NCBI RefSeq assembly: GCF_017355885.1
Contig: NZ_JAFEUU010000018.1
Span: 1-60,599, forward strand
Direction: 5' to 3'
Length of the DNA: 60,599 bases
Source of the DNA: Sabulicella rubraurantiaca
GTDB taxonomy: Bacteria; Pseudomonadota; Alphaproteobacteria; Acetobacterales; Acetobacteraceae
This document shows, in pieces, positions 21,442 to 60,599 of this stretch (position 1 is the stretch's first letter; the number at the start of each line of letters is the position of its first letter). A program made the position numbers and the translations under genes. The notes under the pieces are model-generated. The model was given only the letters and a program-made list of their open reading frames with translations. It was not told where the DNA came from and made no database searches.

Positions 21442-21573
21442 ATACTATGCCCCCAACACAAGGGCGGACCGCAAGGGGACCGGCGCGCCAGCACCCCTAC
21501 CCTCCCGCACCAGTTGCTGGGCTGCGAAGCTGTGAAATGCCGCCTGCCGGATGGGCGGCTGGCCGCATAGTAT
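21442..21573. repeat. paired inverted 9-bp sites in a divergent promoter region
   Basis: ATACTATGC at 21442-21450 and its exact reverse complement GCATAGTAT at 21565-21573 lie 114 bp apart in the 317-bp gap between the aminotransferase and the receptor operon. Both contain TAGTAT, which resembles a -10 element pointing towards each flanking gene. They could be two sites for one regulator or mirrored promoters. No other gene is seen in the gap. Confidence 0.35.
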
Positions 21574-21731
21574 TGATCTTTCGGCACGGGCCTCGGTCAG
21601 ATCTGCCTTTCGAGGGCGCGGAGGGACACGGCCTCGGCCAGGGGGCGGAAAAGGAGGGTCCGGAGCCCTTCAACTCATCCGACCTGTGCTGCAAGCTTCG
21701 GACCAAGCATCGAATTGGGAGGAGACGGAGC

Positions 21732-22964
21732 ATGAGAACACAGAGCGGCAGGCGCTCCCTGCTGATCGGCAGCGCCGTTGCAGCCACGTCGCTTGCTGCG
21801 CCGGCTATCCGGGCGCAGCCGGCGCGCAGCGTGAAGATCGGCGTTCTCAGCGACATGAACGGCCCCTACTCTGCCAATACCGGGCAGGGCTCGGTGGTCG
21901 GCGCGAAGTTGGCGGCCGAGGATTTCATGCGGTCCCGTCCAGGGTTGCGGGTGGAGGTCATCCAGGCAGACTTCCAGAATCGCCCGGATGTTGGCCTCGC
22001 TGTGGCGCGCGACTGGCTCGATCGGCAGGGCGTGGACGCCATCCTGGACGTGCCGGTCTCCTCGGTCGCGCTTGGCTTGGCGGGGCTGGTAGCCGAGAAG
22101 GACAAGGTCGCGCTCTTCACCGGCCCCGCCTCCGCAGCCCTGACAGGGGCGAATTGCGGCCCGAACCACGTGCACTGGACCTACGACACCTGGTCCCTCG
22201 CCGCTGGCACCGGGCGCGCCCTGGTGGCGGACGGGGCGGATACCTGGTTCTTCATCACGGCTGATTACGCCTTCGGCCACGCGCTTGAAGCCGACACGGC
22301 GGGCTTCGTGCGGGAGGCCGGAGGCCGCGTTCTCGGCACGGCGCGCCCCCCCTTCCCCGGCACGACCGACTTCTCCTCCTTCCTCGTGCAGGCGCAGGCC
22401 AGCCGGGCGAAGGTGATCGGCTTGGCGAATGCCGGCATCGACACGGTCAACTGCCTGAAGCAGGCGGCCGAGTTCGGCATCACCCGCCGCGGCACGCGCC
22501 TCGCTGCGCTGCTGTTCCAGATCGCGGACGTGCACGCCCTGGGATTGCAGGCAGCGCAGGGGCTGACGCTCACCGAGGCCTTCTATTGGGACATGAACGA
22601 GGACACACGCGCCTTCTCCGCCCGCTACGCGCCCCAGATGGCCGGGCACAAGCCGGGCATGATCCACGCCGGCGGCTATTCCGCCGTGCTCCACTACCTC
22701 AAGGCGCGCGAGGCGCTGGGCGGGAATGCCAGCGGCCGCGCCGCAATCGCCTGGATGAAGGCGAACGGCACCGATGATCCGCTCTTCGGGCAGGGAACGG
22801 TGCGCGCCGATGGCCGCAAGGTGCACGACATGTATCTTTTCCGCGTCAAGACACCGGAGGAAAGCAAAGGTCCCTGGGACTACTACGACACCGTCCGCAC
22901 CATCCCCGCTGAACGGGCCTTCCGACCCATGGCGGGCGCGGGTTGCGCCATGGTGCCAGCATGA
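21732..22964 (+). CDS. branched-chain amino-acid-type ABC receptor, orphan (copy 2)
   Basis: A 410-residue periplasmic receptor. The signal RRSLLIGSAVAATSLAAPAIRAQ precedes VKIGVLSDMNGPYSANTGQGS, the type-I receptor start. Blocks such as DFSSFLVQAQASR and LTEAFYWDMNEDTRAFS are shared with the receptor at 54042, so the two are close paralogues. The ATG at 21732 has GGGAGGAGA upstream. It is the first gene of a three-gene operon, and no permease or ATPase is linked. Confidence 0.9.
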   Translation: MRTQSGRRSLLIGSAVAATSLAAPAIRAQPARSVKIGVLSDMNGPYSANTGQGSVVGAKLAAEDFMRSRPGLRVEVIQADFQNRPDVGLAVARDWLDRQGVDAILDVPVSSVALGLAGLVAEKDKVALFTGPASAALTGANCGPNHVHWTYDTWSLAAGTGRALVADGADTWFFITADYAFGHALEADTAGFVREAGGRVLGTARPPFPGTTDFSSFLVQAQASRAKVIGLANAGIDTVNCLKQAAEFGITRRGTRLAALLFQIADVHALGLQAAQGLTLTEAFYWDMNEDTRAFSARYAPQMAGHKPGMIHAGGYSAVLHYLKAREALGGNASGRAAIAWMKANGTDDPLFGQGTVRADGRKVHDMYLFRVKTPEESKGPWDYYDTVRTIPAERAFRPMAGAGCAMVPA

Positions 22965-46619: not shown

Positions 46620-48065
46620 TTATGAGGATCGGGGTGGCGCGAGGGCCTGATTCTCCGCCGGAAGCGGCTCGGCGGGTGCGTCGGGAAGGGGCCGGAAGCC
46701 CGCGGGCACCTCGATCTGCGGGTTGCGGGCGAAGAGGCGCGACCAGGCGCGGTCCGCCACCGCCTCTGCCTCGCGGATGATGCGCGCCTCATCCATCGTC
46801 AGTACCACCCCGTCGCGCATGACCCAGCGCCCATCCACCATCACATCCTCGACGTCCCGCGCCTGGCCCTGGTGCACGAAGACCGAGACGGGGCGGAGGA
46901 AGGGCGCGAGATGCGCGCGATCCACCCGCAGCATGATGAGATCGGCGAGGTTCCCCTCCGCCAGCCAGCCGCCATCCGGCACGCCCATCGCGCGATACCC
47001 GTTGCGCGTGGCCCAGCGCAGCGCCTCCTCCGGGGTTGGGTTGCGCCCATCGCGCCGCCGCACCCGCTCCATGAAGAGGCCGGTGCGCATCACCTCCACC
47101 ATATCCTCGGCCATGTTGTCGGTGCCCATGCCGACGTTGCAGCCCGCCATCTCCATCTCGCAGACACGCGGGCTCAGCCCCCGCCGCGCGGCGATCGCGG
47201 AATTGAAGGCGACGTTCACCCGGTGCTTTCCGAGGATCTTCTCCTCCAGCGGCTCCATGCAGCGGCAATGCGCCGCAACCAGACGCTCGCTCAGGAAGCC
47301 GATGCTCTCCAGGAACTCGGAAGGCAGCATGTTGTGATGCGCCTGCACCGCCGCGACCTCGCCCCAGATCTGGTTGAGATGGATGGTGGCGATGGTGCCG
47401 AGCCGGTCCTGCAGCGCCCGCGCGTCTCGCAGCAGCTCGGGGGAGCACATGTCGGGCGCCCAGGCGGCGACGCCGACGTGGATGCGCCCTTCTCCGGCTC
47501 CATCCCATCGCGCGTGCAGCCGCTCGATGCGCTCCAGCCCCGCACGGCCAACCGCTTCGTCGCGGCGGAACTCGGAGGGATCGCCGATCGAGGCGCCGGC
47601 GCGGTCCCAGCAGCGCTCGGCCAGCAGCATCCGCAGCCCGGTGCCCACCATCTCGTCCGCATAGTTGGCGATATCCACCCCGTCTTCCAGCAGCGCCGTG
47701 GTGCCGGACCGGATCGCCTCCAGCGCGCCGAGCTGGCACATCACCGCCTGCTCCTGCGGGGTCATCGGCGGCAGCGGAATGGGCGATAGCCCGCCATGAA
47801 ACGGTGGTTCGTGAGGCGGGGACAGATCCTCGAAGACGCCGCGAGCGAGCGTCATCACCAGATGCGTGTGGATGTTCGCGAAGCCCGGCAGGACAACGCG
47901 GCCCGCGCCGTCCACCCGCTCGGCATCCGGAAAGCGGCCGGCAACCGCTTCGCGCCGGCCGATCGCGGCGATCCGATTGCCCTCGATGGCCAGCGCCCCG
48001 TCGTGGTGGATGGTGCCCGCGTCGTCGCCTGTCACGACGATCGCGCCTTCGATCAGGATGGTCAC
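46620..48065 (-). CDS. deaminase/chlorohydrolase-type amidohydrolase (copy 1)
   Basis: A 481-residue metal-dependent amidohydrolase of the cytosine deaminase/AtzA/TrzA group. Metal ligands are His66 and His68 (ANIHTHLVM), a later His in TIHLNQIWGE and AAHCRCMEPLEE, and the Asp in GMGTDNMAED. The C-terminal composite domain (ARDVEDVMVDGRWVMRDG) is normal. The start is a GTG at 48065 with GGGGAGG upstream. It is divergent from a receptor-amidohydrolase pair across a 180-bp gap, suggesting shared control. Deamination or dechlorination of an N-heterocycle or guanidine-like compound is inferred. Confidence 0.88.
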   Translation of the reverse strand: MTILIEGAIVVTGDDAGTIHHDGALAIEGNRIAAIGRREAVAGRFPDAERVDGAGRVVLPGFANIHTHLVMTLARGVFEDLSPPHEPPFHGGLSPIPLPPMTPQEQAVMCQLGALEAIRSGTTALLEDGVDIANYADEMVGTGLRMLLAERCWDRAGASIGDPSEFRRDEAVGRAGLERIERLHARWDGAGEGRIHVGVAAWAPDMCSPELLRDARALQDRLGTIATIHLNQIWGEVAAVQAHHNMLPSEFLESIGFLSERLVAAHCRCMEPLEEKILGKHRVNVAFNSAIAARRGLSPRVCEMEMAGCNVGMGTDNMAEDMVEVMRTGLFMERVRRRDGRNPTPEEALRWATRNGYRAMGVPDGGWLAEGNLADLIMLRVDRAHLAPFLRPVSVFVHQGQARDVEDVMVDGRWVMRDGVVLTMDEARIIREAEAVADRAWSRLFARNPQIEVPAGFRPLPDAPAEPLPAENQALAPPRSS

Positions 48066-48245
48066 GAATCCGGCCTCCCCTGCTAACCCGCCCGAGTTTG
48101 GGCGAGAGGTGACGCGGCGTCACGCCCCGTGATTGCCGCGCAATTGGGCACGGCATGGGTCGGCGATGGCGCAGGCGATCGAATTCTCGTTGCGGCAGGC
48201 GGAGACGGGCCCCACGATGCGGATCTGACGACCGAGGAGCTCCGC

Positions 48246-49829
48246 ATGCCCATCCGCCGCCGTCACCTGGGTTTGATTGCCGCGCCAGCCCTGCTGAGCG
48301 TGGAATCGCGGCGGGCCATGGCCCAGGATCCGCGTCGCGTCATCCGCTCCGTTCCGATCGGCGACCTGCGCGCGCTCGACCCGATCTGGACCACCACCTA
48401 TCTCACGCGGAATCACGGCTACCTCGTCTGGGACACGCTTTTCGCGATGGACGCCCAGAACCGGCCCCAGCCGCAGATGGTCGGGGAGTATGGGAATAGC
48501 GGGGACGGCAAGGAGTGGACCTTCCGCCTGCGCGACGGCCTGCTCTGGCACGACGGCACACCGGTCACGGCCGCGGACTGCGTCGCATCCATCCGCCGCT
48601 GGGGCGTGCGGGACGGCATGGGCCGCGCCCTGATGCGCGTGACCGAGAGCCTCGAAGCGCCGGACGCACGGACCATCCGGCTGCGCCTCACGCGTCCCGT
48701 GGGCTTCGTGCTGGAGGCCCTGGGCAAGATCGACAGCAACGTGCCCTTCATGATGCCGGAGCGCCTGGCGCGCACGGACCCGAACACCGCCATCACTGAC
48801 CCGGTTGGCTCCGGTCCCTTCCGCTTCCGGCGGGATCAATGGGTGCCCGGGGCGCGCGTGGTCTATGAGCGCTTCGCGGAATACGTGCCGCGCGCGGAGC
48901 CGCCCAGCCAGGCGGCGGGCGGCAAGGTGGTCAAGGTGGACCGCATCGAGAGCCTCTACACCCCCGATGCCGCGACCGCTGCGAACGGCCTCGCGGCCGG
49001 CGAGATCGACCTGCTGGAGAGCCCAGCGCCTGATCTCGTGCCCCGCCTGACGCGGATGCGCAACGTCACCGTCGTATCGAACGATCCGCTAGGCTACGTG
49101 CTGTTCCTGGCCATGAACCACCTTCAGCCGCCCTTCGACAATCTCGAGGCGCGGCGGGCACTGATGGGGGTGATCCGGCAGCCGGACTTCATGGTGGCCA
49201 CCGTCGGGCAGGACCAGCCCTGGCGCGAATGCGGCGCCCCCTTCGGCTGCGCCCCCTCCGAGACGCCGCAATTCGACACCCTGGGCTGGCCGCGTTTGAC
49301 CGACCAGCAAGGGCGCGACGCCTTCCGGGCCGCAGGCTACGACGGAAGGCCGATCGTGGTGATGGACCCGGCGGACAATGCCGTGCTCCATCCCGGTGCA
49401 CTCCTGGCGGCGGAAGCGCTGCAGCGCATCGGCGCGAATGTGGACTTGATCGCGATGGATTGGAGCGGACTGGTCCAGCGCCGTTCCTCTCGCAATCCGC
49501 CTAACCAGGGGGGATGGAACGTCTTCGTCACCAACGCGACCATCACCGGTGTCCAGAACCCGCTGCTGAACGTCTTCGTCGGCAATTGCGAGAGCGGCTG
49601 GTTCGGCTGGCCCTGCGACGCGCGCGTGCCGCAGCTGAACGACTCCTGGACCTACGAGACGGACCCGGCGCGGCGCCAGGAAATCCTGAAGGAGCTGGAG
49701 CGCGTGCACATCGCCAATGCGACCAACATCCCGCTGGGCCAGTACCGCAGCGTCGTCGCGCACCGATCGAATATGCGCGGCCTGCTGCCGGGCCCAGCCC
49801 TGTTCTACTGGAACCTCGAGAAGCTCTGA
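48246..49829 (+). CDS. peptide/nickel-type ABC receptor (DppA-like), orphan copy 2
   Basis: A 527-residue receptor with a twin-arginine-like start (MPIRRRHLGLIAAPALLS) and the blocks NHGYLVWDTLFAMDAQNRP and DPVGSGPFRF. It is a close paralogue of the receptor at 29616. GAGGAG six bases before the ATG at 48246 supports this start over an open extension of 39 codons. The amidohydrolase gene follows 13 bp later. No permease is linked. Confidence 0.9.
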   Translation: MPIRRRHLGLIAAPALLSVESRRAMAQDPRRVIRSVPIGDLRALDPIWTTTYLTRNHGYLVWDTLFAMDAQNRPQPQMVGEYGNSGDGKEWTFRLRDGLLWHDGTPVTAADCVASIRRWGVRDGMGRALMRVTESLEAPDARTIRLRLTRPVGFVLEALGKIDSNVPFMMPERLARTDPNTAITDPVGSGPFRFRRDQWVPGARVVYERFAEYVPRAEPPSQAAGGKVVKVDRIESLYTPDAATAANGLAAGEIDLLESPAPDLVPRLTRMRNVTVVSNDPLGYVLFLAMNHLQPPFDNLEARRALMGVIRQPDFMVATVGQDQPWRECGAPFGCAPSETPQFDTLGWPRLTDQQGRDAFRAAGYDGRPIVVMDPADNAVLHPGALLAAEALQRIGANVDLIAMDWSGLVQRRSSRNPPNQGGWNVFVTNATITGVQNPLLNVFVGNCESGWFGWPCDARVPQLNDSWTYETDPARRQEILKELERVHIANATNIPLGQYRSVVAHRSNMRGLLPGPALFYWNLEKL

Positions 49830-49842
49830 CGGGAGGCGCGCC

Positions 49843-51291
49843 ATGATCACGCCTCTCCTGATCCGCAACTCGGCTTGGGCTGTCGTCTGGGACGCCGCCG
49901 GCCGCCACGTCTTCGGCCGAGATCTCGACATCCTGCTGCGCGACGGACGGATTGAGCGCATCAGCCCGCATGATCCTTCCTCCGCGCCCGAGCCGGGAGC
50001 GGAGGTGGTGGATGGGCGCGGCCTGCTTGTCCTGCCCGGTCTGGTGAACATCCACACCCACCCGACCACCGAGCCGGGCTACCGTGGCGTACGCGAGGAC
50101 CACGGCGTCCCGGAACAGGGGATGAGCGGCCTTTTCGAGCGCTCCCAGGCCTTCCGCCTTGATGAGGCAGGGCGGGAAGCGGCGATGCGCCTCGCCTACG
50201 CGGAGCTGATGTCCTCGGGGGTGACCTCGGTCGTGGACCTCTCAGCCCCCTTCCCCCGCTGGCTCACGGTCATGGCCGAAAGCGGACTGCGAAGCTGGGC
50301 CGGGCCGGGCTATGCGGCGGCGCGCTGGGGTATGTCCGCGCCGCAGACCGTCACCTGGATGTGGAACCGCGAGGATGCGTCCCGCCAATTCGAAGCGGCA
50401 AAGCAGGTCATGCGGGAGGCTGAGGCCCATCCTTCGGGCCGGCTGAGCGGCATCGTCTTCCCTGCCCAGATCGACACGGTGGAGGAGGAGATGCTGCGCG
50501 AGGGCGTCGCCTATGCCGCCGAAACCGGGCGGCCCTTCACCACCCACATCGCCCAGGCGATCGTGGAGGTGCAGGAGATGATCCGCCGCCATGGCGTCAC
50601 CCCTATCCAATGGGCCGCCAATATCGGGCTGCTGACGCCGCGAACCATCCTCGGCCATGCGATCTTCGTGGACGAGCATCCCTCCGTCCGCTGGCACACT
50701 TCGCGCGACGTCGGGCTGATGGCAGAGCATGGCGCGAGCGTCGCGCACTGCCCCTCCCCCTTCGCGCGCTACGGGGAGCATCTGCGGACATTCGGTTCCT
50801 ACCGGGCGCGCGGGATACGGATCGGCTTCGGCACGGATGTCGCCCCGCACAACCTGATCGAGGAGATGCGGACCGCCCTCATCCTGGCGCGCAACGCGGC
50901 GCGCGACCTCGCGGCGGCGACGACGGAGGGCGTCTTCCACGCCGCGACCATTGGTGGCGCGGAGGCGCTGGGGCGGGACGATCTGGGCCGGCTGCAAGCG
51001 GGGGCGGCGGCCGATGTGGTGCTGGTGGACCTTCACCATCCGCTGATGGCGCCGCCGCGCGATCCACTCCGCTCATTGATCTACCATGCGGCGGACCGCG
51101 CGGTGCGGCGCGTGCTGGTGGCGGGGGAGACGGTCTGGGCCGATGGCTGCCCGACGCGGCTCGACGTGACCGAGGCTGCGGGCATCCTTGCGGAGTCCCA
51201 GGCACGAATGCTGCGCGACGCATGTGGCCGGGACTATCGTGGACGCGATGGCGACGAGATCGCGCCGCTCAGCCTGCCAATGCTGACCTGA
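49843..51291 (+). CDS. deaminase/chlorohydrolase-type amidohydrolase (copy 2)
   Basis: A 482-residue amidohydrolase. Metal ligands are His71 and His73 (VNIHTHPTTEPG), then FTTHIAQ, LGHAIFVDEHP and Asp in GFGTDVAPHN. It has the composite beta domain at both ends (ADVVLVDLHHPLM, VRRVLVAGETVWADG). GGGAGG precedes the ATG. It is co-transcribed with the receptor and is a diverged relative of copy 1. Together they may act on successive or related imported substrates. Confidence 0.88.
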   Translation: MITPLLIRNSAWAVVWDAAGRHVFGRDLDILLRDGRIERISPHDPSSAPEPGAEVVDGRGLLVLPGLVNIHTHPTTEPGYRGVREDHGVPEQGMSGLFERSQAFRLDEAGREAAMRLAYAELMSSGVTSVVDLSAPFPRWLTVMAESGLRSWAGPGYAAARWGMSAPQTVTWMWNREDASRQFEAAKQVMREAEAHPSGRLSGIVFPAQIDTVEEEMLREGVAYAAETGRPFTTHIAQAIVEVQEMIRRHGVTPIQWAANIGLLTPRTILGHAIFVDEHPSVRWHTSRDVGLMAEHGASVAHCPSPFARYGEHLRTFGSYRARGIRIGFGTDVAPHNLIEEMRTALILARNAARDLAAATTEGVFHAATIGGAEALGRDDLGRLQAGAAADVVLVDLHHPLMAPPRDPLRSLIYHAADRAVRRVLVAGETVWADGCPTRLDVTEAAGILAESQARMLRDACGRDYRGRDGDEIAPLSLPMLT

Positions 51292-51448: not shown

Positions 51449-51985
51449 ATGATCCAAGGCATGGAGCCAGCCCCCACTGTATCGCGCCCAGCTCTGATGC
51501 CCGATGGGACCGACGCGGCATTCCGCGCCATGGTTCACGACACGCTCGCCTTCGCGGCGCGGATCGAGGAGGTCCGGCGCCTATTTGGCGAGCTGATCGA
51601 CCTGTCCGCTTCCTCGTACACGCTGTTGATCACCGTGCGTCACCTCCAGAAGCAGGACGGCGTGAGCGTCAGCGAGGCGGCGACGCACCTGCATCTATCC
51701 GGCTCCGCCGTGACGATCGAGGCGAACCGCCTGTCGAAGCTCGGGTTGGTGACGCGTCATCCTGACCCGCAGGACCGGCGGCGCGTGCTGCTCCGCGTCA
51801 CGCCCTTGGCGGAGGCGCGTCTGCGCCAGCTCGCGCCGGTGCAGGCACAGGCGAATGACGCGCTCTTTGCCTGCCTGGATGCGGAGGGCTTCCGCCGCTT
51901 CGCCGGCACGATGCGTGGCCTGGTCGGCTGCGCGGAAGATGCACTGGGCATTCTGGAACATGCCACGCGCCGCAAGGCCGGATGA
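51449..51985 (+). CDS. MarR-family transcriptional regulator
   Basis: A 178-residue winged-helix protein. The DNA-binding domain spans about 55-120 (YTLLITVRHLQ, VSEAATHLHLSGSAVTIEAN and the wing HPDPQDRRRVLLRVT). Such regulators sense aromatic or phenolic ligands. A start at 51461 (MEPAPTV) is an alternative. Its stop overlaps an ATG of the next frame, and an HpaB-type monooxygenase follows directly, so they form one operon, most likely self-repressed through the adjacent palindrome. Confidence 0.9.
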   Translation: MIQGMEPAPTVSRPALMPDGTDAAFRAMVHDTLAFAARIEEVRRLFGELIDLSASSYTLLITVRHLQKQDGVSVSEAATHLHLSGSAVTIEANRLSKLGLVTRHPDPQDRRRVLLRVTPLAEARLRQLAPVQAQANDALFACLDAEGFRRFAGTMRGLVGCAEDALGILEHATRRKAG

Positions 51986-51999
51986 AGGAGGACACGGAG

Positions 52000-53487
52000 A
52001 TGAACGTGAAGACCGGCGCGGAGCACCGCGCGTCACTGCGCGACGGGCGCGACATCCGCATCGAGGGCCGCCGCGTTGCCGACGTGACGGAGGATCCTGC
52101 CTTTCGCGGCGCCGTCGCCTCGGGCTGCGCGCTGTATGACGCACAATCCGCCCCCGAAGCCGTGGAGCGCCTGACCTATGAGGTTCCTGGCCTCGGCGGC
52201 CGCCGCGCCAACCGTGCCTGGCAGGCACCACGGAGCTATGCCGAATTGGTGACGCGTCGCGAGGCGCTGGAGGAATGGGCGGAGGGCCATGTCGGCTTCA
52301 TCGGCCGCTCGCCCGATCACGTCGCCTCCTGCCTGGTCGGGATGGAAATGGATCCGGCCCCGTTCGAGGCGCATGACCTGAAGCGCGCGGGCGCGCTGCG
52401 CGACTACGTGGCATTCGCCCGCGCGAAGGACCTGTTCCTCACCTATGTCATCATCAACCCGCAGGCTGACCGCTCGAAGCAGGCCAGCCAGCAGAGCAAC
52501 CCCGACCTTGCCCTGCACATCGTGGATGAGGACCATGAGGGGATCACGGTGCGCGGCGGGAAGATGCTCGCCACCTCCTCGGTCATGGCAAACGAGATCT
52601 TCGTTTCCACCATCCAGCCCATGGCGCCGGGCGATGAGCGCCATGCCGTCTGCTTCGCCATTCCTGTTGCAACGAGGGGCCTGCGTCTGCTGTCGCGCAA
52701 GTCCTATGAGGCCGCCGCCGGTCATCCGTTCGATGCGCCGCTCGCCTCCCGCTTCGACGAGAACGACGCCGTCGCCTATTTCGATGAGGTGAAGGTGCCG
52801 TGGGAGCGCGTCTTCGCCACGCGCGACCTGCGCATCATGCAGGCCATGTGGCACGAGACGCCGGCCCACGTCCTGCAGAACTACCAGTGCCAGATCCGCC
52901 TGCTGGTGAAGATGCGCTTTCTGGCCGGCATCGCCCGTCGCACTGCCGAGATCAACGGCACCATCGGGATGCCCCCGGTGCGGGACACGCTGGGCCAGCT
53001 CGCCGCCGAGGTGGGCATGGTGGAGGGATTGCTGCGCGGCATGGAGGCGAAGGGGCGGATGCACAACGGCTTCTTCGTTCCGGACCGCACCCTGCTCTAC
53101 TCCGCCCAGGTGCTGACGCAGCAGCTCTATCCGCGCTTCGTGGACACGCTGCGCGAGCTGGCGGGCGGCGGCCTCATCATGCTGCCCTCCTCCGCGGCCG
53201 ACTATGGCGACGCCCAGATCGCGCACGACATCGCGGCGACGCAATGCTCCTCGGTGGCCGGGCCGATGGAGCGGGTGAAGTTCTTCAAGCTGGCCTGGGA
53301 CGCGGTGGGGAGCGAGTTCGCATCGCGCCACGTGCAGTACGAGAAGTTCTATGCCGGCGCGCAGTTCGTCACGCGTGGCCACTCCTTCCGGACTTTCGAT
53401 TGGACGCGCTCCTCCGCGGCCGTGGACCGCATCTTGGGGGAGACGCCGGAGCCGGTTCCCGCCACCATGCCGATCGCGGCCGAATAG
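52000..53487 (+). CDS. HpaB-type FADH2-dependent monooxygenase
   Basis: A 495-residue protein of the 4-hydroxyphenylacetate 3-monooxygenase oxygenase (HpaB/PvcC) family: N-terminal HpaB domain (ASLRDGRDIRIEGRRVADV) and the central acyl-CoA-dehydrogenase-like core (VRGGKMLATSSVMANEIF, FFKLAWDAVGSEFASRHVQYEKFYAG). The family hydroxylates phenols or other rings using reduced FAD supplied by a separate HpaC-like reductase; none is present in the window. The ATG at 52000 has AAGGAGG 8 bases upstream. An overlapping ATG at 51982 is an alternative. It follows the MarR gene and precedes a cupin. Confidence 0.9.
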   Translation: MNVKTGAEHRASLRDGRDIRIEGRRVADVTEDPAFRGAVASGCALYDAQSAPEAVERLTYEVPGLGGRRANRAWQAPRSYAELVTRREALEEWAEGHVGFIGRSPDHVASCLVGMEMDPAPFEAHDLKRAGALRDYVAFARAKDLFLTYVIINPQADRSKQASQQSNPDLALHIVDEDHEGITVRGGKMLATSSVMANEIFVSTIQPMAPGDERHAVCFAIPVATRGLRLLSRKSYEAAAGHPFDAPLASRFDENDAVAYFDEVKVPWERVFATRDLRIMQAMWHETPAHVLQNYQCQIRLLVKMRFLAGIARRTAEINGTIGMPPVRDTLGQLAAEVGMVEGLLRGMEAKGRMHNGFFVPDRTLLYSAQVLTQQLYPRFVDTLRELAGGGLIMLPSSAADYGDAQIAHDIAATQCSSVAGPMERVKFFKLAWDAVGSEFASRHVQYEKFYAGAQFVTRGHSFRTFDWTRSSAAVDRILGETPEPVPATMPIAAE

Positions 53488-53497
53488 GACAGCATGC

Positions 53498-53878
53498 ATG
53501 GCCATCAACAAGGCACACCTCGAGTTCCACACGCTCGATCTGGAATCGGGATGGGAGGTGCCGCCGGGCTATCCGGCCGGCATCCAGCAAAAGATCCTTG
53601 CCGGCACGCTCGACGAGGCCAACAAGCGTGGCTGCCGCACCCGGCTCCTGCGCTTCGCCCCCGGTGCCTTCACCACGGCGCCATTCGTGCACGATTACTG
53701 GGAGGAGGTCCTCCTGGTGAGCGGCGACCTTTGGGTGGGCAATGACGCCGATGGCAAGGGCGGGACGAAATTCCCGCCGATGACCTACGCGTCCCGCCCG
53801 CCCGGGGCCTGGCACGGGCCTTTCCGGAGCGATGGCGGCTGCATTCTCTATGAAAGCCACACCTACGACCCCGCCTGA
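53498..53878 (+). CDS. ChrR-like cupin (copy 1)
   Basis: A 126-residue cupin with His/Glu metal-site candidates in FVHDYWEEVLLVSGDL and RPPGAWHGPFRSD. It is very similar to the cupin at 57531 (shared GYPAGI, QKILAG, NKRG, RTRLLRF, FTTAPFVHDYWEEV). It starts 10 bp after the HpaB-type gene, and a strong terminator follows. It may catalyse a step on the hydroxylated product or act as a metal-dependent hydrolase. The family has no defined reaction here. Confidence 0.83.
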   Translation: MAINKAHLEFHTLDLESGWEVPPGYPAGIQQKILAGTLDEANKRGCRTRLLRFAPGAFTTAPFVHDYWEEVLLVSGDLWVGNDADGKGGTKFPPMTYASRPPGAWHGPFRSDGGCILYESHTYDPA

Positions 53879-53936
53879 CAGCAGGATCGCGGGGCACTGA
53901 CATCTTCGGTTGCCGGACGTCCCGATCCGGTGACGT

Positions 53937-53959
53937 TGGCCGCTCTGCGGCCAGATTTT
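53937..53959 (+). terminator. intrinsic terminator of the MarR/HpaB/cupin operon
   Basis: TGGCCGC, loop TCT and GCGGCCA form a perfect seven-bp stem followed by GATTTTC. It ends the three-gene operon 60-80 bp after the cupin, so the next receptor gene needs its own promoter. Confidence 0.7.
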
Positions 53960-54041
53960 CCGAGGCGGGCTATGGAGCCTGTCCCGAGTGGGAAGCCAGC
54001 ACGCGGCGAAAGACCGCGAGTATTCGAGAGAGGAAGTTCCG

Positions 54042-55256
54042 ATGAAGCGTTCCATCCTGGCCGCCCTGCTGGGCGGCGCACTGGGCCTGGCAGGCACGGC
54101 GCAGGCGCAGGTCTCCGACAATGCCGTCCGCATTGGCGTGATGAACGACCAGTCCGGCCTGTTCGCCGACCTGGCCGGGCCGGGTTCGGTCGAGGCTGCA
54201 CGCATGGCGGTGGCCGATTTCGGCGGCACGGTGCTGGGGCGCCCGATCGAGGTGGTCGCCGGCGACCACCAGAACCGCGCCGATGTCGGCTCGGCCCTGG
54301 CTCGGCGCTGGTACGACAATGACCGCGTGGACGTCATCATGGACATCCCCAATAGCGGCGTGGCGCTGGCGGTGCAGGGCGTGGCGCGCGAGAAGCAGCG
54401 TCTCGTGATCTTCTCCTCGGCTGCCGTGTCGGATCTCACCGGGCGTGCCTGCTCGCCCTACGGCATCCAGTGGACCTTCGACAGCTACGCGCTCGCGCGC
54501 TCCACCGCGACGGCGGTGATGAGGCGCGGCGGCGATTCCTGGTTCTTCCTCACCGTGGACTATGCGCTGGGCCACACTTTCGAGCGTGACGTGGGCCAGG
54601 TGGTGCAGGCGGGGAATGGCCGGGTGGCGGGTGCGGTGCGCCATCCGCTGAACACGGCCGACTTCTCCTCCTACCTGCTCCAGGCGCAGGCCAGCCGGGC
54701 GCGGGTCCTGGCCTTCGCCAATGCAGGCGGTGACCTGTCGAACAGCATCAAGCAGGCTGCCGAGTTCGGCCTGTTCCGTCGCATGACGCCGACCGCGATC
54801 ATGGCCTTCCTGACCGACATTCACGCCATCGGCCTCCCGACCGCCCAGGGCCTTCAGCTCACCGAGAGCTTCTACTGGGACATGAACGAGGAGGCGCGCG
54901 CCTGGTCCCAGCGCTTCTTCGCCGCGCGCGGGCGGATGCCGACCATGCCGCAGGCGGGCGTGTACACGGCGACGATGCACTATCTGCGCGCCGTGCAGGC
55001 GGCGGGGACGGACGACGCGCTGAAGGTGGCCGAGCAGATGCGCGCCATGCCGATCAACGACTTCATGACGCAGAACGGTCGGGTGCGTGAGGACGGGCGC
55101 GTTCTGCGCGACTTCTACCTGTTCCAGGTGAAGGCACCGGCGGAGAGCCGCGGGCCATGGGATCTCTACCGCCTCGTCGCCACCGTCCCGGCGGCCGACG
55201 CGGCGCGCCCGCTGGCCGAGGGCGGCTGCGCCCACCTCAGCCAAAATCCTGGCTGA
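54042..55256 (+). CDS. branched-chain amino-acid-type ABC receptor, orphan (copy 3)
   Basis: A 404-residue receptor with a Sec signal (KRSILAALLGGALGLAGTAQA) and mature start VSDNAVRIGVMNDQSGLFA. It is a close paralogue of the receptor at 21732 (shared DFSSYLLQAQASRA, FYWDMNEEARA, ETC-type loops). GAGAGGAAG precedes the ATG at 54042. There is no transporter partner in the window. It stands between two monooxygenase operons and probably feeds the same pathway. Confidence 0.9.
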   Translation: MKRSILAALLGGALGLAGTAQAQVSDNAVRIGVMNDQSGLFADLAGPGSVEAARMAVADFGGTVLGRPIEVVAGDHQNRADVGSALARRWYDNDRVDVIMDIPNSGVALAVQGVAREKQRLVIFSSAAVSDLTGRACSPYGIQWTFDSYALARSTATAVMRRGGDSWFFLTVDYALGHTFERDVGQVVQAGNGRVAGAVRHPLNTADFSSYLLQAQASRARVLAFANAGGDLSNSIKQAAEFGLFRRMTPTAIMAFLTDIHAIGLPTAQGLQLTESFYWDMNEEARAWSQRFFAARGRMPTMPQAGVYTATMHYLRAVQAAGTDDALKVAEQMRAMPINDFMTQNGRVREDGRVLRDFYLFQVKAPAESRGPWDLYRLVATVPAADAARPLAEGGCAHLSQNPG

Positions 55257-55466
55257 AGCAGCGCTCCGCGGCAAAGGGGCGGAGGGGCTACCCTCCTCCT
55301 CGTGCCGCGCGGGACACGCGGAAGTGCAGTTCCCCGTGCGCCCGCCTTTCACCTGCGCGGTTGGCGTCCCGTAGCCAGCACGCCGCGCCCCAGCGTCGTC
55401 TCGTATCCCTCAAGCAGCATGGAATTTACGCGACCGGGAACGGAGGCCCCGGTCTAGTCGCCCAGA

Positions 55467-55493
55467 TCTGAAATATCACTGTGAAATTTCAGA
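55467..55493. promoter_or_regulatory. 27-bp near-perfect palindrome upstream of the FAD monooxygenase operon
   Basis: TCTGAAAT at 55467-55474 and ATTTCAGA at 55486-55493 are exact inverse arms. The inner bases TCAC-t-GTGA are also paired, giving 12 of 13 matches around the central T. The site lies about 120 bp before the monooxygenase start in a 356-bp gap that holds no gene. The GntR-family regulator ending this cluster (59232) is the obvious candidate to bind it. Confidence 0.7.
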
Positions 55494-55612
55494 CTTGCAC
55501 GCCCGGCCACTCTGTGTGCAGCATCCGGCCCCGGCGGCGGGCCTCATGACGTCTCATGCGTCACACGCGCCGTGGCGCGGCCTTTGGGGCCATGAGAAGG
55601 AGACTCGAGACG

Positions 55613-56803
55613 ATGCGCGCACCCGAACCTGTTCTTGTCGTGGGCGCGGGCCCTGTTGGCCTCGTCGCCGCTGCCGAGCTGGTTCGTCACGGCGTGCCCG
55701 TCCAGGTGCTGGAGGCCGGGCCGGAACTCTCAGGCGAGATGAGGGGCTCCACCTTTCACGCCCCGACGCTCGACATGCTGGACGACCTCGGTGCCGCCAA
55801 GGCCATGATCGAGCAGGGCATCGTCGCCCCGCACATGCAGTATCGCAGCCGCGACCAGGGCATCATTGCCGCCTTCGATTTCGGCGTGCTCGCCGACGTC
55901 ACGCGCCATCCCTTCCGCCTGCAATGCGAGCAGTTCAAGCTCACCCGCATCCTCCATGACCTGCTGCGTGACAAGCCGGGCTTCTCCATCCGCTTCGATG
56001 CCCGCGTCAGCGGCTGCGTCTCGCATGGCGATTCGGTGGAGGTGACCCTCGATGACGGCGAGCGCATCGCCGGCTCCTACGTGATCGGCGCGGATGGCGC
56101 CCGCAGCCCCATCCGCAAATCGTCCGGCATCGAGTTCGAGGGCTTCACATGGCCCGAGCGCTTCCTCGTGCTCTCCACGCCCTTCGACTTTGCCGAGATC
56201 ATCCCGGACCTCGCCGACGTGTCCTACTACGCCGACCCGGAGGAATGGTTCTTCCTCCTGAAGGTGCCGGGCGTCTGGCGCGCCATGTTCCCCGTCCCGG
56301 CCGAGGTGCCGGACGAGGAAACCCTGACCGACGCCTATGCGCGCGCGCGCTTCGCCCGGATCGTCGCGGGGCGGGACGACTACCCCACCCGGCATCGCAC
56401 CCTGTACCGCGTGCACCAGCGCGTGGCGAAGACCTTCCGCCAGGGGCGCGTGCTACTGGCCGGCGATGCCGCGCACATCAACAACCCGCTCGGCGGCATG
56501 GGGTTGAACGGCGGCGTGCACGACGCCTTCAACCTGGCGGCCAAGCTCGCCCAGGTCTGGCATGGCGAGGCGGAGGAAACCCTGCTCGATCTCTATGACC
56601 GTCAGCGTCGCGGCGTCACGGTGGAGCACGTGCAGCGCCAGACCATCGCCAACAAGCAGAACCTGGAGGCCAAGGAGCCGGAAGCGCAGCGTGCCTTCCG
56701 CGAGCGGATGGCGGATACCGCTGCCGATCCCGCCAAGGCTCATGCCTATCTGCTGGGTGTCTCCATGATCAACAGCCTGCGCCGCGCGGCTGAGATCGCC
56801 TGA
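55613..56803 (+). CDS. FAD-dependent aromatic hydroxylase (PheA/TfdB-type)
   Basis: A 396-residue flavoprotein monooxygenase of the PHBH/PheA class. FAD motifs are VVGAGPVGLVAAAELVRHG near the N-terminus, the DG motif VIGADGARSPIRK and the GD motif LLAGDAAHINNPLGGMGLNGG. It lacks the C-terminal thioredoxin-like domain of some phenol hydroxylases. It uses NAD(P)H directly. A start at 55592 is an alternative. It begins an operon with DUF2848 and a cupin, 23 bp and 14 bp apart. Confidence 0.9.
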   Translation: MRAPEPVLVVGAGPVGLVAAAELVRHGVPVQVLEAGPELSGEMRGSTFHAPTLDMLDDLGAAKAMIEQGIVAPHMQYRSRDQGIIAAFDFGVLADVTRHPFRLQCEQFKLTRILHDLLRDKPGFSIRFDARVSGCVSHGDSVEVTLDDGERIAGSYVIGADGARSPIRKSSGIEFEGFTWPERFLVLSTPFDFAEIIPDLADVSYYADPEEWFFLLKVPGVWRAMFPVPAEVPDEETLTDAYARARFARIVAGRDDYPTRHRTLYRVHQRVAKTFRQGRVLLAGDAAHINNPLGGMGLNGGVHDAFNLAAKLAQVWHGEAEETLLDLYDRQRRGVTVEHVQRQTIANKQNLEAKEPEAQRAFRERMADTAADPAKAHAYLLGVSMINSLRRAAEIA

Positions 56804-56826
56804 GAAGCGGCGGGGAGAAGCACAAA

Positions 56827-57516
56827 ATGATTGAGTTGACCTTCGACTTCCAGACCGGCGGAACGACGGAGCGCCGCCGCATCGCGCTGCGCGATCTGGT
56901 GATTGCCGGCTGGACGGGCCGCGACCCCCACAAGGTGCAGGAGCATATCGAGGAGCTGGCCGCCCTCGGCGTCGCCCCGCCCCCCAGCACGCCCTGCTTC
57001 TATCGTGCCGGGCTGGAGACGCTGACCACCAATCCGGAAGTCGATTGCCTGGGCAGCGGATCGAGCGGCGAGGCGGAGTTCGTCATCGTTGTCGATGAAG
57101 CGGGCAAGTGGTGGGTCGGGCTCGGCTCGGACCACACGGATCGCGAGGTGGAGAGCTACTCCATCAGCGTCTCCAAGCAGATGTGCCCCAAGCCCGTCGC
57201 GCCTCTCCTTTGGGCCTTCGACGATGTCGGGGATCATTGGGACAGCCTCCAGCTGCGCGCCTGGGTCCGGGAGGAAGCGGGCTGGGTATCGTACCAGGAG
57301 GGCAGCGTCGCCGCGATGCGCGACCCGCGCGACACCGTGGCCGCGCATGAGGCCCAGGGCCGCGGCGCGCTCGGCGCCGGGACGCTGATGTTCGGCGGCA
57401 CGCTGCCGGCGATCGGCGGCATCCGTCCGCGTCAGGAATTCCGGATGGAACTGCGCGACCCCGTTCTCGGGCGCGCCATCACCCACGAGTACACGGCCCG
57501 CTGGCTGGCCGCGTAG
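56827..57516 (+). CDS. DUF2848-family protein (fumarylacetoacetase-like fold)
   Basis: A 229-residue protein with the DUF2848 pattern: LVIAGWTGRDPHKVQEHIEEL, the middle GSGSSGEAEFVIVVDEAG and GLGSDHTDREVE. The acidic/His residues there may bind a metal, as in fumarylacetoacetate hydrolases. DUF2848 has no established reaction that I know. Because it lies between a ring hydroxylase and a cupin, carbon-carbon bond hydrolysis or decarboxylation of a ring-opened product is a reasonable guess. Confidence 0.83.
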   Translation: MIELTFDFQTGGTTERRRIALRDLVIAGWTGRDPHKVQEHIEELAALGVAPPPSTPCFYRAGLETLTTNPEVDCLGSGSSGEAEFVIVVDEAGKWWVGLGSDHTDREVESYSISVSKQMCPKPVAPLLWAFDDVGDHWDSLQLRAWVREEAGWVSYQEGSVAAMRDPRDTVAAHEAQGRGALGAGTLMFGGTLPAIGGIRPRQEFRMELRDPVLGRAITHEYTARWLAA

Positions 57517-57530
57517 GACGGAGACAGATC

Positions 57531-57917
57531 ATGCCGATCACCAAGGAGCATCTCGAGTTCCACGTCCCGGATACGGGCACGGGCTGGGAAGTGCCGAAGG
57601 GATATCCCGCGGGCATCGAGCAGAAGATCCTGGCTGGCAGCCTGGACGAGGAGAACAAGCGCGGCCACCGCACGCGCCTGCTGCGCTTCCAGCCCGGCGA
57701 GTTCACCACCGCGCCCTTCGTGCATGATTACTGGGAAGAGGTGTGGCTGGTTTCCGGTGACCTGATCGTCGGCAACGACGCCCAAGGCAATGGCGGCGAG
57801 AGCTTCGACCGTTCCGCCTACGCCTGCCGTCCGCCAGGCGCCTATCACGGCCCCTTCAAGTCGGAGACGGGCTGCACCCTGCTCGAGATCCACTACTACG
57901 ACGAGACGCCGAAGTGA
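57531..57917 (+). CDS. ChrR-like cupin (copy 2)
   Basis: A 128-residue paralogue of the cupin at 53498, with the same His/Glu candidates (FVHDYWEEVWLVSGDL, RPPGAYHGPFKSE). It starts 14 bp after the DUF2848 gene, with GGACGGAG upstream. A duplicate enzyme placed after each of the two monooxygenases suggests that each branch needs the same type of step. A 185-bp gap without a clear feature follows before the TctC gene. Confidence 0.83.
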   Translation: MPITKEHLEFHVPDTGTGWEVPKGYPAGIEQKILAGSLDEENKRGHRTRLLRFQPGEFTTAPFVHDYWEEVWLVSGDLIVGNDAQGNGGESFDRSAYACRPPGAYHGPFKSETGCTLLEIHYYDETPK

Positions 57918-58102
57918 GCATCGCCGCTGCCTTGAACTCCAAGACCTCGCGAGTGGCTTCGGCTGACTGAGCGGGCGGCCCGCGTCCCATTCGCAGGCCC
58001 AGTCCTGATGTCCACCGGAACGCCAGTCACACGCGGCCGTCTTCAAGGGACCGGCAGAGTCCCGCGACGGCAACAACTCATGCTTCGCAAGGAGGCGAGA
58101 CG

Positions 58103-59119
58103 ATGTTGCATTCGACCAAAGGCCAAACGAGACCCTGGAAGGCGGCTCGCGGGCTGGCAAAGGCCCTTACGGTCCTGGCAGTGGTAGCCGGCGCCGGTCC
58201 GGTTCAGGCACAGGCGCCCGGCAACTGGCCCGACCGGCCCATCCGCGTGGTGGTTCCATTCGCGCCGGGCGGCATGACGGACAGCGTCGGGCGCCTGAGC
58301 GCAGAATGGCTCAGCAGGTCGCTCGGCCAGCCCGCGCCGGTCGAGAACCGCAGCGGTGCCAATGGCGCCATCGCGGCCGAGGCCGTCGCGCGCAGCGCGC
58401 CCGACGGTTACACGCTGTTCACGGCGAGCGCTTCGCAGATGGTGATGCTTCCCGCCCTCACCCGGCTGAGCTTCAATCCGGCGACTGACTTCGCTCCGGT
58501 TTCCATCGTGGCCAGCAACCCGATGGTGATCGCGGTCAGCAGTGCGCTGAACGTTACGACGCTGGAGGAATTCGTTGCCCTGGCCAAATCCCGTCCGGGC
58601 CAGTTGGATTATTCCTCCGCCGGCAACGGCTCTTCCACCCATCTCGCCATGGCGCTGCTGATGCAGCGGGCGGGAATCGACATGCAGCACGTGACGTATC
58701 GCGGCGGTGCACCGGCTATGCAGGCCCTGCTGGCGGGAGAGGTCGCGGCCTATTTCGGCAATCCGTCGGACATGATCCCGCATCTGCAAGGCGGCCGCAT
58801 CCGCGTGCTCGCCGTAGCGGGCGCGGAACGGCTTGCCAGCCTGCCTGATGTGCCGACGGTGGCGGAGAGCGGCTATCCTGGCTTCCGCGCGGAAACCTGG
58901 AACGGGATCGCCGCTCCGGCCGGGACCCCCGCGCCCATCGTGAACCGCATGGCTGCGGCCCTGGGCAATGCCTGTGCCGATTCCCAGTTCCGCGCGTCCC
59001 TAGAGCGCCTGGGCACCACCCCGGTCTGCAGCACGCCGGAGGCCTTTGCCGAGGCGATGCGCCGTGACGCGCCTCTCTGGCAGGAGGCGGTGCGCGTCTC
59101 GGGCGCCAAGCTGGACTGA
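58103..59119 (+). CDS. TctC/Bug-type periplasmic solute receptor 5
   Basis: A 338-residue receptor with signal (ALTVLAVVAGAGPVQAQA) and hallmarks RPIRVVVPFAPGGMTD, VENRSGANGAIAAEA and HVTYRGGAPAMQALLAGEV. AAGGAGG precedes the ATG. It follows the oxygenase/DUF2848/cupin operon and precedes the GntR regulator by 112 bp. It is an orphan without TctAB. Confidence 0.9.
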   Translation: MLHSTKGQTRPWKAARGLAKALTVLAVVAGAGPVQAQAPGNWPDRPIRVVVPFAPGGMTDSVGRLSAEWLSRSLGQPAPVENRSGANGAIAAEAVARSAPDGYTLFTASASQMVMLPALTRLSFNPATDFAPVSIVASNPMVIAVSSALNVTTLEEFVALAKSRPGQLDYSSAGNGSSTHLAMALLMQRAGIDMQHVTYRGGAPAMQALLAGEVAAYFGNPSDMIPHLQGGRIRVLAVAGAERLASLPDVPTVAESGYPGFRAETWNGIAAPAGTPAPIVNRMAAALGNACADSQFRASLERLGTTPVCSTPEAFAEAMRRDAPLWQEAVRVSGAKLD

Positions 59120-59231
59120 ACACCTGGCCGGCCGGGAGACCGTCGCGCCAAGCCCGTCCGACGGAAGCTTGGCGGGCCAACCCGGCCGCCGCAAAACTGA
59201 TGCGCAGAGACAAAGGGAGGAAGGCGAGACG

Positions 59232-59951
59232 ATGCGCGCCCCGGCGACGAAGACCGACCGCTGGCTGGCCCGCGCCGCGGGCTCAACGCCGAGTGGCTAC
59301 CTGAAGCACGCACCTGCCGTACCGCTCAAGGATCAAGCCTATGAGATCATTCGGCATCACATCATCACCTGTCGCTTCGCGCCGGGAGAGAAGCTGAACG
59401 AGGCGCAGGTCGCCGACTCGCTCGGCCTCAGCCGCATGCCGGTCCGCCATGCGCTCGCGCGGCTGCGGCTGGAGGGGCTGATCACGATCCGGCCGAGGAA
59501 GGGCATCGAAGTTCGCCCGATCGATCCAGCGGAGCTGCTAAAGATCATCGAGGCGCGCACTGTGAACGAGTGCCACGCCGTGCGTCTTGCCGCGGCTCGC
59601 TTCAGCCCCGAAGACATCGCCGCCATGGACGGCATGCTTCGCGACACGGAAGCGGCGTTGGAACAGCATGACACGGAGGCGCTGATGCTGCTGGACACCG
59701 CCTTCCACGCGCTGATCGCACGCGCCTCAGGCAATGAAGTCTTTGCGGAGATCCTCGGCAATCTGCACGATCGGGCGGTCCGCTTTTGGTTCATCTCCCT
59801 GGATGAGCCGAATCATCAGAGAAGCGTGCTTCAGGAGCATCTCGAGATCCGGAACGCTCTGGCTGCGCGCAATGCGGATGAGGCAAGCGCGGCCATGGAG
59901 CGCCACATCGCCGCATTCCGCCGAAATGTCACGCATCTGATTGGGCAGTGA
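59232..59951 (+). CDS. GntR-family regulator with FCD domain
   Basis: A 239-residue FadR-type regulator. The winged helix lies at about 33-95 (KDQAYEIIRHHIITCRFAPG, DSLGLSRMPVRHALARLRLEG) and the all-helical FCD effector domain at about 105-232 (His and Asp metal-site residues in DTAFHALIARASGN and MERHIAAFRR). GGGAGGAAGG precedes the ATG at 59232. It is the last gene of the catabolic cluster and probably represses it through the palindrome at 55467. Confidence 0.9.
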   Translation: MRAPATKTDRWLARAAGSTPSGYLKHAPAVPLKDQAYEIIRHHIITCRFAPGEKLNEAQVADSLGLSRMPVRHALARLRLEGLITIRPRKGIEVRPIDPAELLKIIEARTVNECHAVRLAAARFSPEDIAAMDGMLRDTEAALEQHDTEALMLLDTAFHALIARASGNEVFAEILGNLHDRAVRFWFISLDEPNHQRSVLQEHLEIRNALAARNADEASAAMERHIAAFRRNVTHLIGQ

Positions 59952-59990: not shown

Positions 59991-60205
59991 TCATGCGGCG
60001 AGGCCCCTGGCGCGCAGCCCCGCGGCCACGTGGTCCACGAAAGCGTGCACCTTCGGGGCGATGAGCCGGTTGGTCGGATAGACGGCGCAGATGCCGCTCG
60101 ATGGGGTCTCCGCATCCGGCAGTACGCGCTGCAGCAGGCCGGCGGCCAGCGCATCGGTCACCGACCAGTCCGGCACCGCCGCCAGCCCGACCCCAGGCCT
60201 CGCGC
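59991..60205 (-). pseudogene. C-terminal fragment of a LysR-family regulator cut by an IS
   Basis: The minus strand encodes the end of a LysR effector domain (GVGLAAVPDWSVTDALAAGL, then NRLIAPKVHAFVDHVAAGLRARG). Towards the right, LysR similarity ends at about 60205 and low-GC IS DNA begins. The DNA-binding N-terminus would lie on the far side of the insertion, outside the window, if it survives. It was probably a local regulator, convergent with the GntR gene. Confidence 0.7.
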
Positions 60206-60599
60206 TAGTACAAGCAGCTTCAGGCCACTCCCAACTGAGCCGCTTAAATTGTCTCAGAAGAGAGCCGCGCATTTCAGAGGCTAACAGCCCTATGAGACCG
60301 ATAAAGGTTGAATACTCCAACAATTTAACACAAGAAGGCGTACTTCACAGAAAATTCTAAAATCCCGCTTCATGAAGTGCGTGCGATGCGGCGCAGAAGC
60401 ACGGCCGCGGCGGCGAGTGTGAAGAACGCGGCGGCCGAACTCGCCATGGCTTGGTGGTCACGGGCGAGACGCCCGGCAGCGGCTGGTCCAGCCGAAGGTG
60501 CGCTCGATCACCCAGCGACGGGGCTGAACCGCGAAGCCTTGTGCATCCGGAGCACGGCCGACCAGCTGGACCGTGACGGGCGTCGCGGTGGCGACGCGC
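60206..60599 (-). mobile_element. insertion sequence end (IS5-family-like), partial
   Basis: From a CTAG at about 60206 the sequence becomes AT-rich (60210-60365, unlike the rest of the window) and then enters a transposase C-terminus on the minus strand. The terminal inverted repeat and target duplication cannot be fixed with only one end in view. The AT-rich strip is non-coding IS end or a second inserted fragment. Confidence 0.65.
60370..60599 (-). pseudogene. IS5-family-like transposase C-terminus, partial and frameshifted
   Basis: The minus strand reads APDAQGFAVQPRRWVIERTFGW, a DDE-transposase end of the IS5/IS427 type with the catalytic Glu in VIERTFGW. One extra G near 60472 shifts the frame; correcting it continues the protein as RCRRLARDHQAMASSAAAFF and AVLLRRIARTS before TGA at 60370. 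The frameshift is either inactivation or a base-call error. The rest lies beyond the right edge. Confidence 0.7.

Follow-up and report, generated by a model that had tools for sequence, protein, structure and literature searches.

Two flavin-dependent monooxygenases of different families, each followed by a small cupin, are encoded side by side on contig NZ_JAFEUU010000018.1 of Sabulicella rubraurantiaca (Acetobacteraceae), within the 60,599-nucleotide stretch analysed here (the window). Do they hydroxylate one ring in succession, or do they perform the same task in separate gene sets? The first-pass annotation had read the locus (51449-59951) as uptake, ring hydroxylation, a second hydroxylation and processing of the product. 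It seems that the two oxygenases stand in for each other instead of acting one after the other, and the window is best read, tentatively, as two partial copies of a recurring cassette for degradation of a small-ring compound.

Joint recurrence of its parts in many genomes shows the locus to be a genuine catabolic cassette. A cupin-alignment scan of one genome per species returned at least 567 relatives, of which the closest 80 loci were retained; with five plasmid loci and the window they form an 86-locus set. Clusters of open reading frames (ORFs) in this set comprise the cupin (85 loci), DUF2848 (70), HpaB (46), MarR (40), amidase (39), flavin reductase (37), TctC (28), GntR (23) and the flavin adenine dinucleotide (FAD) monooxygenase, hereafter the FAD enzyme (21). 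The clusters miss some members, one being the HpaB of L104, which is present at its locus yet falls outside the cluster. Cassette parts adjoin each other in alpha-, beta- and gammaproteobacteria and on contigs filed under other phyla. The typical HpaB layout, seen in Cupriavidus, Caballeronia, Martelella and Devosia, is an operon of MarR, flavin reductase, HpaB, cupin and amidase that includes or adjoins DUF2848 and a Liv transporter; the typical FAD layout, seen in Roseomonas, is FAD enzyme, DUF2848, cupin, amidase, TctC and GntR. These loci were picked by the cupin, and two less biased samples were therefore taken: 385 class genomes, that of S. rubraurantiaca among them, in which only the best candidates per genome were scored (thresholds of 1e-25, 1e-90 and 1e-130, chosen by us), and 200 genomes of the order. 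In the class sample the cupin is found in 31 genomes, HpaB in 16, the FAD enzyme in 34 and DUF2848 in 48 (versus 0 of 14 control genomes). The cupin occurs with HpaB in 13 genomes (1.3 expected), with the FAD enzyme in 18 (2.7 expected) and with DUF2848 in 23 (3.9 expected), or in 12, 17 and 22 genomes without the own genome, and in 10 of the 12 other genomes having both, cupin and HpaB are no more than 3 kb apart. The neighbourhood search proposed in the first-pass annotation thus finds the genes together elsewhere, and a ring-degradation gene set, as it had claimed, is supported by parts that co-occur far above expectation and adjoin across the proteobacteria.

Loci that have an oxygenase nearly always hold a single type. 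Within 10 kb of the cupin, 42 of the 80 loci encode HpaB only, 19 the FAD enzyme only, 1 both and 18 neither (P = 2e-7; Fisher tests here take loci as independent, uncorrected for relatedness); the last group includes short contigs, such as L137 with its 3083 bases, where absence is weak. A single type is present in 61 of the 62 retained loci having any, and the sole locus with both is L064 of Roseomonas rosea. Sister cupins (support 100/91) in similar surroundings accompany HpaB plus reductase in Lacisediminimonas (L087) and the FAD enzyme in Herminiimonas (L093). On the cupin tree, which has few columns and a bootstrap that had not settled, the starred branches force at least six changes of oxygenase label, each for HpaB and for the FAD enzyme. 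Among ten family genomes selected for holding the cassette (thresholds of 1e-60 and 1e-40), three encode the FAD enzyme and no HpaB (G012, G129 and G196), three encode HpaB and no FAD enzyme (G168, G019 and G084) and four encode both (G000, G022, G105 and G180). Given the family genomes and loci with one oxygenase type alone, either enzyme therefore suffices for a cassette; where a strain has both, they may serve two substrates or successive steps. The two are not mutually exclusive. Given the cupin, they are independent in the class sample (HpaB in 13 of 31 genomes, the FAD enzyme in 18 of 31, both in 8 of 31; P = 1), and loci L110, L117, L121 and L139 carry two HpaB genes, both of which count against a strict swap; FAD homologues, nearly all unlinked, occur in 8 of the 16 HpaB genomes of the class (1.4 expected). 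Two-substrate or serial use is therefore possible in some strains. The ring hydroxylation followed by a second hydroxylation that had been proposed is not supported by the single-type loci, the L087/L093 swap or the family genomes with either enzyme alone. Adjacent oxygenases need not be two steps, and an easy misreading is thereby corrected.

Parallel use, a variant of the cassette reading in which the two units serve two ring compounds and share DUF2848 and a remote amide hydrolase, is possible, although we hold it less strongly. Each unit has its own regulator and receptor: a MarR-family regulator (51449-51985; PF12802, 3.7e-10) and a LivK-type ATP-binding cassette (ABC) solute-binding protein of the Peripla_BP_6 family (54042-55256; PF13458, 1.6e-102) in the first, and a TctC-type solute receptor (58103-59119; PF03401, 5e-63) and a GntR-FCD regulator (59232-59951; PF07729, 5.5e-28; PF00392, 1e-17) in the second. 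The mono-domain cupins 1 (53498-53878) and 2 (57531-57917; Cupin_7, 1e-06) are placed apart on the cupin tree, and in R. rosea a single cupin and a single DUF2848 accompany the two oxygenases. The window HpaB, the oxygenase component of a group D flavin monooxygenase (51982-53487), is divergent: its branch is long (1.22), and it deviates at 6 of the 106 columns that 47 relatives keep invariant, compared with a maximum of 5 in any relative. Against parallel use, the cupins are still 72.6% identical over 124 amino acids, paralogous as first annotated, and there is no sign of a substrate difference.

The amide hydrolases are also alternatives, and they bear on the type of ring. An amidase is present in 35 of the 80 loci and an enamidase homologue in 11, never together (P = 0.0018). 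Among solved chains, the locus enamidase homologue has by a wide margin its best match in Eubacterium barkeri enamidase (2vun; 8e-93 and 1e-101). In Mariluticola such an enamidase adjoins an FAD enzyme 48% identical to that of the window, in Agrobacterium vitis one adjoins a PF01494 enzyme, and in Sulfitobacter a more distant homologue (43%) lies near a molybdenum hydroxylase. Because these homologues are never found with the amidase, they suggest a nitrogen ring, hinting at a substrate such as hydroxypyridine. HspB, which ranks second among the solved relatives of the FAD enzyme and is a hydroxypyridine monooxygenase, and the published kpi cluster for 4-hydroxypyridine point the same way. The substrate of 2vun is 6-oxo-tetrahydronicotinate, according to the portion of PMC7356986 covered. 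The S. rubraurantiaca cassette has neither hydrolase in place: the interval from cupin 2 to TctC, which contains an amidase-signature gene in L064, L065 and L067, has none here, nor has it in L066, L070 and L072. Across the genome, comparison of all 19 Amidase-family proteins with 34 pathway amidases yields one that is orthologue-like, C62:203549-204781 (43-55% identity, median 51%); in the approximately 10 kb around it the sole other match to the query set is a distant PF01494-like protein (25-28% identity). An enamidase homologue, C11:187680-188822, is 44% identical to a Bradyrhizobium enamidase. With these two genes in the genome, the amide-hydrolysing step could therefore be supplied from elsewhere. 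Two Amidohydro_1 proteins upstream in the window were considered as enamidase stand-ins and rejected, as only short stretches match the Bradyrhizobium enamidase. IscS genes (12 loci) and the UbiD, UbiX and thiamine pyrophosphate (TPP) genes of some loci were set aside as clues to the pathway, nothing further having been learned from them.

DUF2848 (56827-57516) is a candidate fumarylacetoacetate hydrolase (FAH)-type acylpyruvate C-C hydrolase. Its predicted model has the FAH fold. The residues E82, E84 and D102, which do not vary among 53 sequences, make up a predicted E-x-E...D metal triad; in four FAH proteins encoded by this genome the aligned residues are E62, E64 and D93. The first-pass annotation knew of no assigned reaction for DUF2848; the predicted fold narrows that statement to FAH-type chemistry. 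Cupin 2 is predicted with high confidence to adopt the cupin fold (predicted local distance difference test score 93.3), and H65, E69, E70 and H106 are invariant in 57 sequences. H65, E69 and H106 are possible facial metal ligands, an assignment made by hand from the cupin motif. We note that DUF4286 proteins accompany enamidase and FAD enzyme in A. vitis and Mariluticola, and also occur with amidase, DUF2848 and a major facilitator superfamily (MFS) transporter in Pantoea and Phyllobacterium, as if replacing the cupin; the four loci are L163, L166, L031 and L027.

From these parts we infer a substrate, a reaction for each enzyme and an order of steps. The substrate is most likely a hydroxylated N-heterocycle, for example a hydroxypyridine or a pyridine carboxylate. 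Binding would fall to the LivK-type or the TctC-type receptor, and hydroxylation to the PF01494 enzyme or to HpaB with a reductase acting in trans. The ring would then be opened, most likely by the cupin through its putative 2-His-1-Glu metal site, and the N-acyl enamine hydrolysed by the amidase, or by the enamidase in other lineages; in S. rubraurantiaca the amide hydrolase would act from another contig. An acylpyruvate-like product would be split last by the FAH-fold DUF2848, and MarR and GntR-FCD would regulate the two units. The reductase that the first-pass annotation had reported missing for HpaB was not found in the window here either, a genome search giving three PF01613 (Flavin_Reduct) proteins, all on other contigs, of which one matches related-locus reductases at E 1e-5 (31% identity). 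A broader claim, which we regard as rather doubtful, is that of a widespread, as yet undescribed aerobic N-heterocycle pathway with exchangeable parts. Unrelated enzymes would replace each other at two of its steps, two types of monooxygenase at one and two amide hydrolases at the other; the small 2-His-1-Glu cupins would be a new family of ring-opening dioxygenases, and DUF2848 would form a new branch among FAH acylpyruvate hydrolases. If true, two protein families would gain a testable reaction class: DUF2848, which has no function assigned in Pfam, and the cupins, of which a single genome collection yields at least 567 relatives. A route of nitrogen-ring degradation would also be added in common genera that live in soil or with plants, among them Bradyrhizobium and Cupriavidus.

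Several observations weigh against the reading of the window as partial copies of a cassette for N-heterocycles. Seven of the 12 other HpaB-cupin genomes of the class hold an FAD homologue elsewhere, as an unlinked serial step would give. The FAD enzyme is near the cupin in 0 of the 17 other class genomes having both, the pairs lying on separate contigs or, in G357, 208 kb apart; FAD-cupin linkage is therefore mainly a feature of Acetobacteraceae, with a few other loci (L032, L090, L093 and L126, among others). DUF2848 is found in 26 of the 200 genomes of the order, and of the 25 neighbourhoods fetched besides the own one, 9 hold a cassette-type cupin, 7 an MFS transporter instead and 9 neither; with 16 of 25 thus having no such cupin nearby, DUF2848 is distributed more widely than the cassette. 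Profile comparison of DUF2848 with FAH gives a probability of 45% (E 2.2e-4). The enamidase locus on contig C11 (G000:C11:179500-190000, L168) encodes xanthine-dehydrogenase-type subunits, AA_synth (PF06684), a UPF0280 homologue and LivG/LivF, and because its large subunit passes a xanthine dehydrogenase model, of which the small subunit falls short, the locus may serve purines. It is also possible that this region of C11 is a second N-heterocycle locus of this genome; its two LivK genes are 55-56% identical to the window LivK. Finally, in the kpi pathway of Arthrobacter sp. IN13 the enamidase-related protein itself opens the ring, according to the portion of PMC7356986 covered, which makes a ring-opening role of the cupin less certain here.

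It is possible, although again less favoured, that the cupin is an accessory isomerase or handles a reactive quinone. Ring opening would then fall to a protein resembling enamidase, on the kpi model, or to an amidase through lactam hydrolysis; the cupin is, however, present in loci with either amide hydrolase, although loci were picked by the cupin, and its three possible metal ligands are kept in all 57 sequences. A benzenoid, gentisate-like route is less likely but a live rival. A phenol would be para-hydroxylated, the cupin would open the ring, DUF2848 would act like fumarylpyruvate hydrolase and the amidase would act earlier, preparing an amide substrate, but enamidase homologues in the amidase's place suit a cyclic enamide rather than a benzenoid, and no NCBIfam model matched either cupin. 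Considered as gentisate 1,2-dioxygenases, the two cupins are single-domain proteins of 126-128 amino acids. Less likely still is a serial pathway in which HpaB and the FAD hydroxylase act successively on one ring, each followed by its own cupin, which would suit the paired oxygenases of the window and R. rosea, the unlinked FAD homologues of HpaB genomes and the loci with two HpaB genes, but fits poorly with the single-type loci, the family genomes with either oxygenase alone and the independence of the two given the cupin.

The cassette reading invites comparison with known systems. The kpi pathway for 4-hydroxypyridine likewise has a PF01494 hydroxylase, an enamidase-related amidohydrolase, an N-formyl hydrolase and a FAH-family last step, with formylpyruvate cleavage proposed as its end, in the portion of PMC7356986 covered. 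It differs in that no cupin, HpaB or DUF2848 is among the Table 1 entries covered, KpiC opens the ring, and the deformylase is an alpha/beta hydrolase rather than an amidase-signature enzyme (PMC7356986). By comparison with the Bradyrhizobium enamidase, the window cluster contains no enamidase-like amidohydrolase, and the homologue lies on contig C11. The E. barkeri nicotinate route shares the enamidase, of which full-length homologues occur in 11 of 80 loci and a homologue elsewhere in this genome, but that route is a fermentation, the window has no enamidase and the cassette carries oxygenases. Likeness to HpaBC, the 4-hydroxyphenylacetate 3-monooxygenase, extends to the HpaB fold, HpaB_N and HpaB domains spanning the whole length of the window enzyme (PF11794, 274.4 bits, 1.5e-81; PF03241, 177.2 bits, 2.9e-52). 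It nevertheless scores far below the curated cut-offs for that activity (TIGR02309, 295.9 versus 480.2; TIGR02310, 268.7 versus 885.2) and has no reductase gene alongside, and whereas the hpa operon includes meta-cleavage genes, the neighbours in related loci are amidase, cupin and DUF2848. For the group A FAD enzyme (55604-56803; PF01494, 2.1e-64), which has the GxGxxG, DG and GD motifs and conforms at all 81 columns that 17 relatives keep invariant, the nearest solved chains are the single-component monooxygenases PnpA (6ain, 1.1e-55) and then HspB, a 6-hydroxy-3-succinoylpyridine 3-monooxygenase (7da9, 8.1e-51), but no pnp or nicotine-pathway genes were recognised nearby, no gene-by-gene search having been made. 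DUF2848 resembles the FAH superfamily (fumarylpyruvate hydrolase, FAHD1) in predicted fold and metal triad, but it is its own Pfam family and has no PF01557 match at E ≤ 0.001.

Two further catabolic systems were considered and rejected. Auxin (iad/iac) loci share MarR regulation, an ABC receptor and plant-associated hosts, but have IotA/IorB-type, COG4638 and Rieske-type genes in the portions of PMC9613470, PMC11630574 and PMC12633357 covered, and the covered portion of PMC9613470 mentions no cupin, HpaB, flavin, amidase or 4-hydroxyphenylacetate. Riboflavin/lumichrome catabolism, considered for its cupin, amidase and FAH, offered no matching set in the covered portion of PMC12746152. None of the titles and abstract openings returned by searches of the open-licence literature describes the cassette, although full texts or subscription papers may, and no paper on DUF2848 was found in that literature. 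The pathway thus appears undescribed in the literature searched, but its parts and logic are of known kinds.

All nine genes of the locus are open frames on the plus strand, and the domains and positions first annotated are confirmed. MarR overlaps the HpaB start by 4 bases, and gaps of 10, 23 and 14 bases separate HpaB from cupin 1, the FAD enzyme from DUF2848 and DUF2848 from cupin 2. The window TctC and GntR-FCD proteins are 67-85% and 59-75% identical, respectively, to those in the same positions in L064-L068, L070 and L072, and the window LivK is 50% identical to the LivK within a Caballeronia HpaB-amidase-DUF2848 operon. Another LivK-type receptor of the window (21447-22964) is 45% identical to the LivK of the Caballeronia HpaB operon. 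A possible upstream extension (46620-51291) comprises an Amidohydro_1 gene (46620-48065, minus strand), a family-5 peptide-type receptor gene from 48249 (plus strand) and a second Amidohydro_1 gene from 49843 (plus strand). Both Amidohydro_1 proteins are TRZ/ATZ-like, and a receptor 74% identical to the one between them adjoins the closest relative of cupin 1, in Rubritepida (L120).

Variants of the cassette parts were also seen in other places. Roseomonas sp. SXEYE001 carries them on two contigs, as FAD enzyme-cupin-TctC-GntR without DUF2848 (L068) and as DUF2848-cupin (L069). At G000:C11:757356-759559 (L144 and L169) an amidase, not of the pathway type (33% identity), adjoins a canonical PF01557 FAH gene in a pairing that resembles amidase plus DUF2848. 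One in-frame stop each is present in the cupin matches G278:C135:47117-47491 and G392:C122:18142-18516 and in the HpaB match G562:C22:15901-17343, which are possibly decaying copies or assembly errors. Near the contig end, a LysR-type regulator is represented only by a C-terminal piece (59991-60323, minus strand; PF03466, profile positions 139-207), and the final bases of the window may resemble insertion-sequence DNA.

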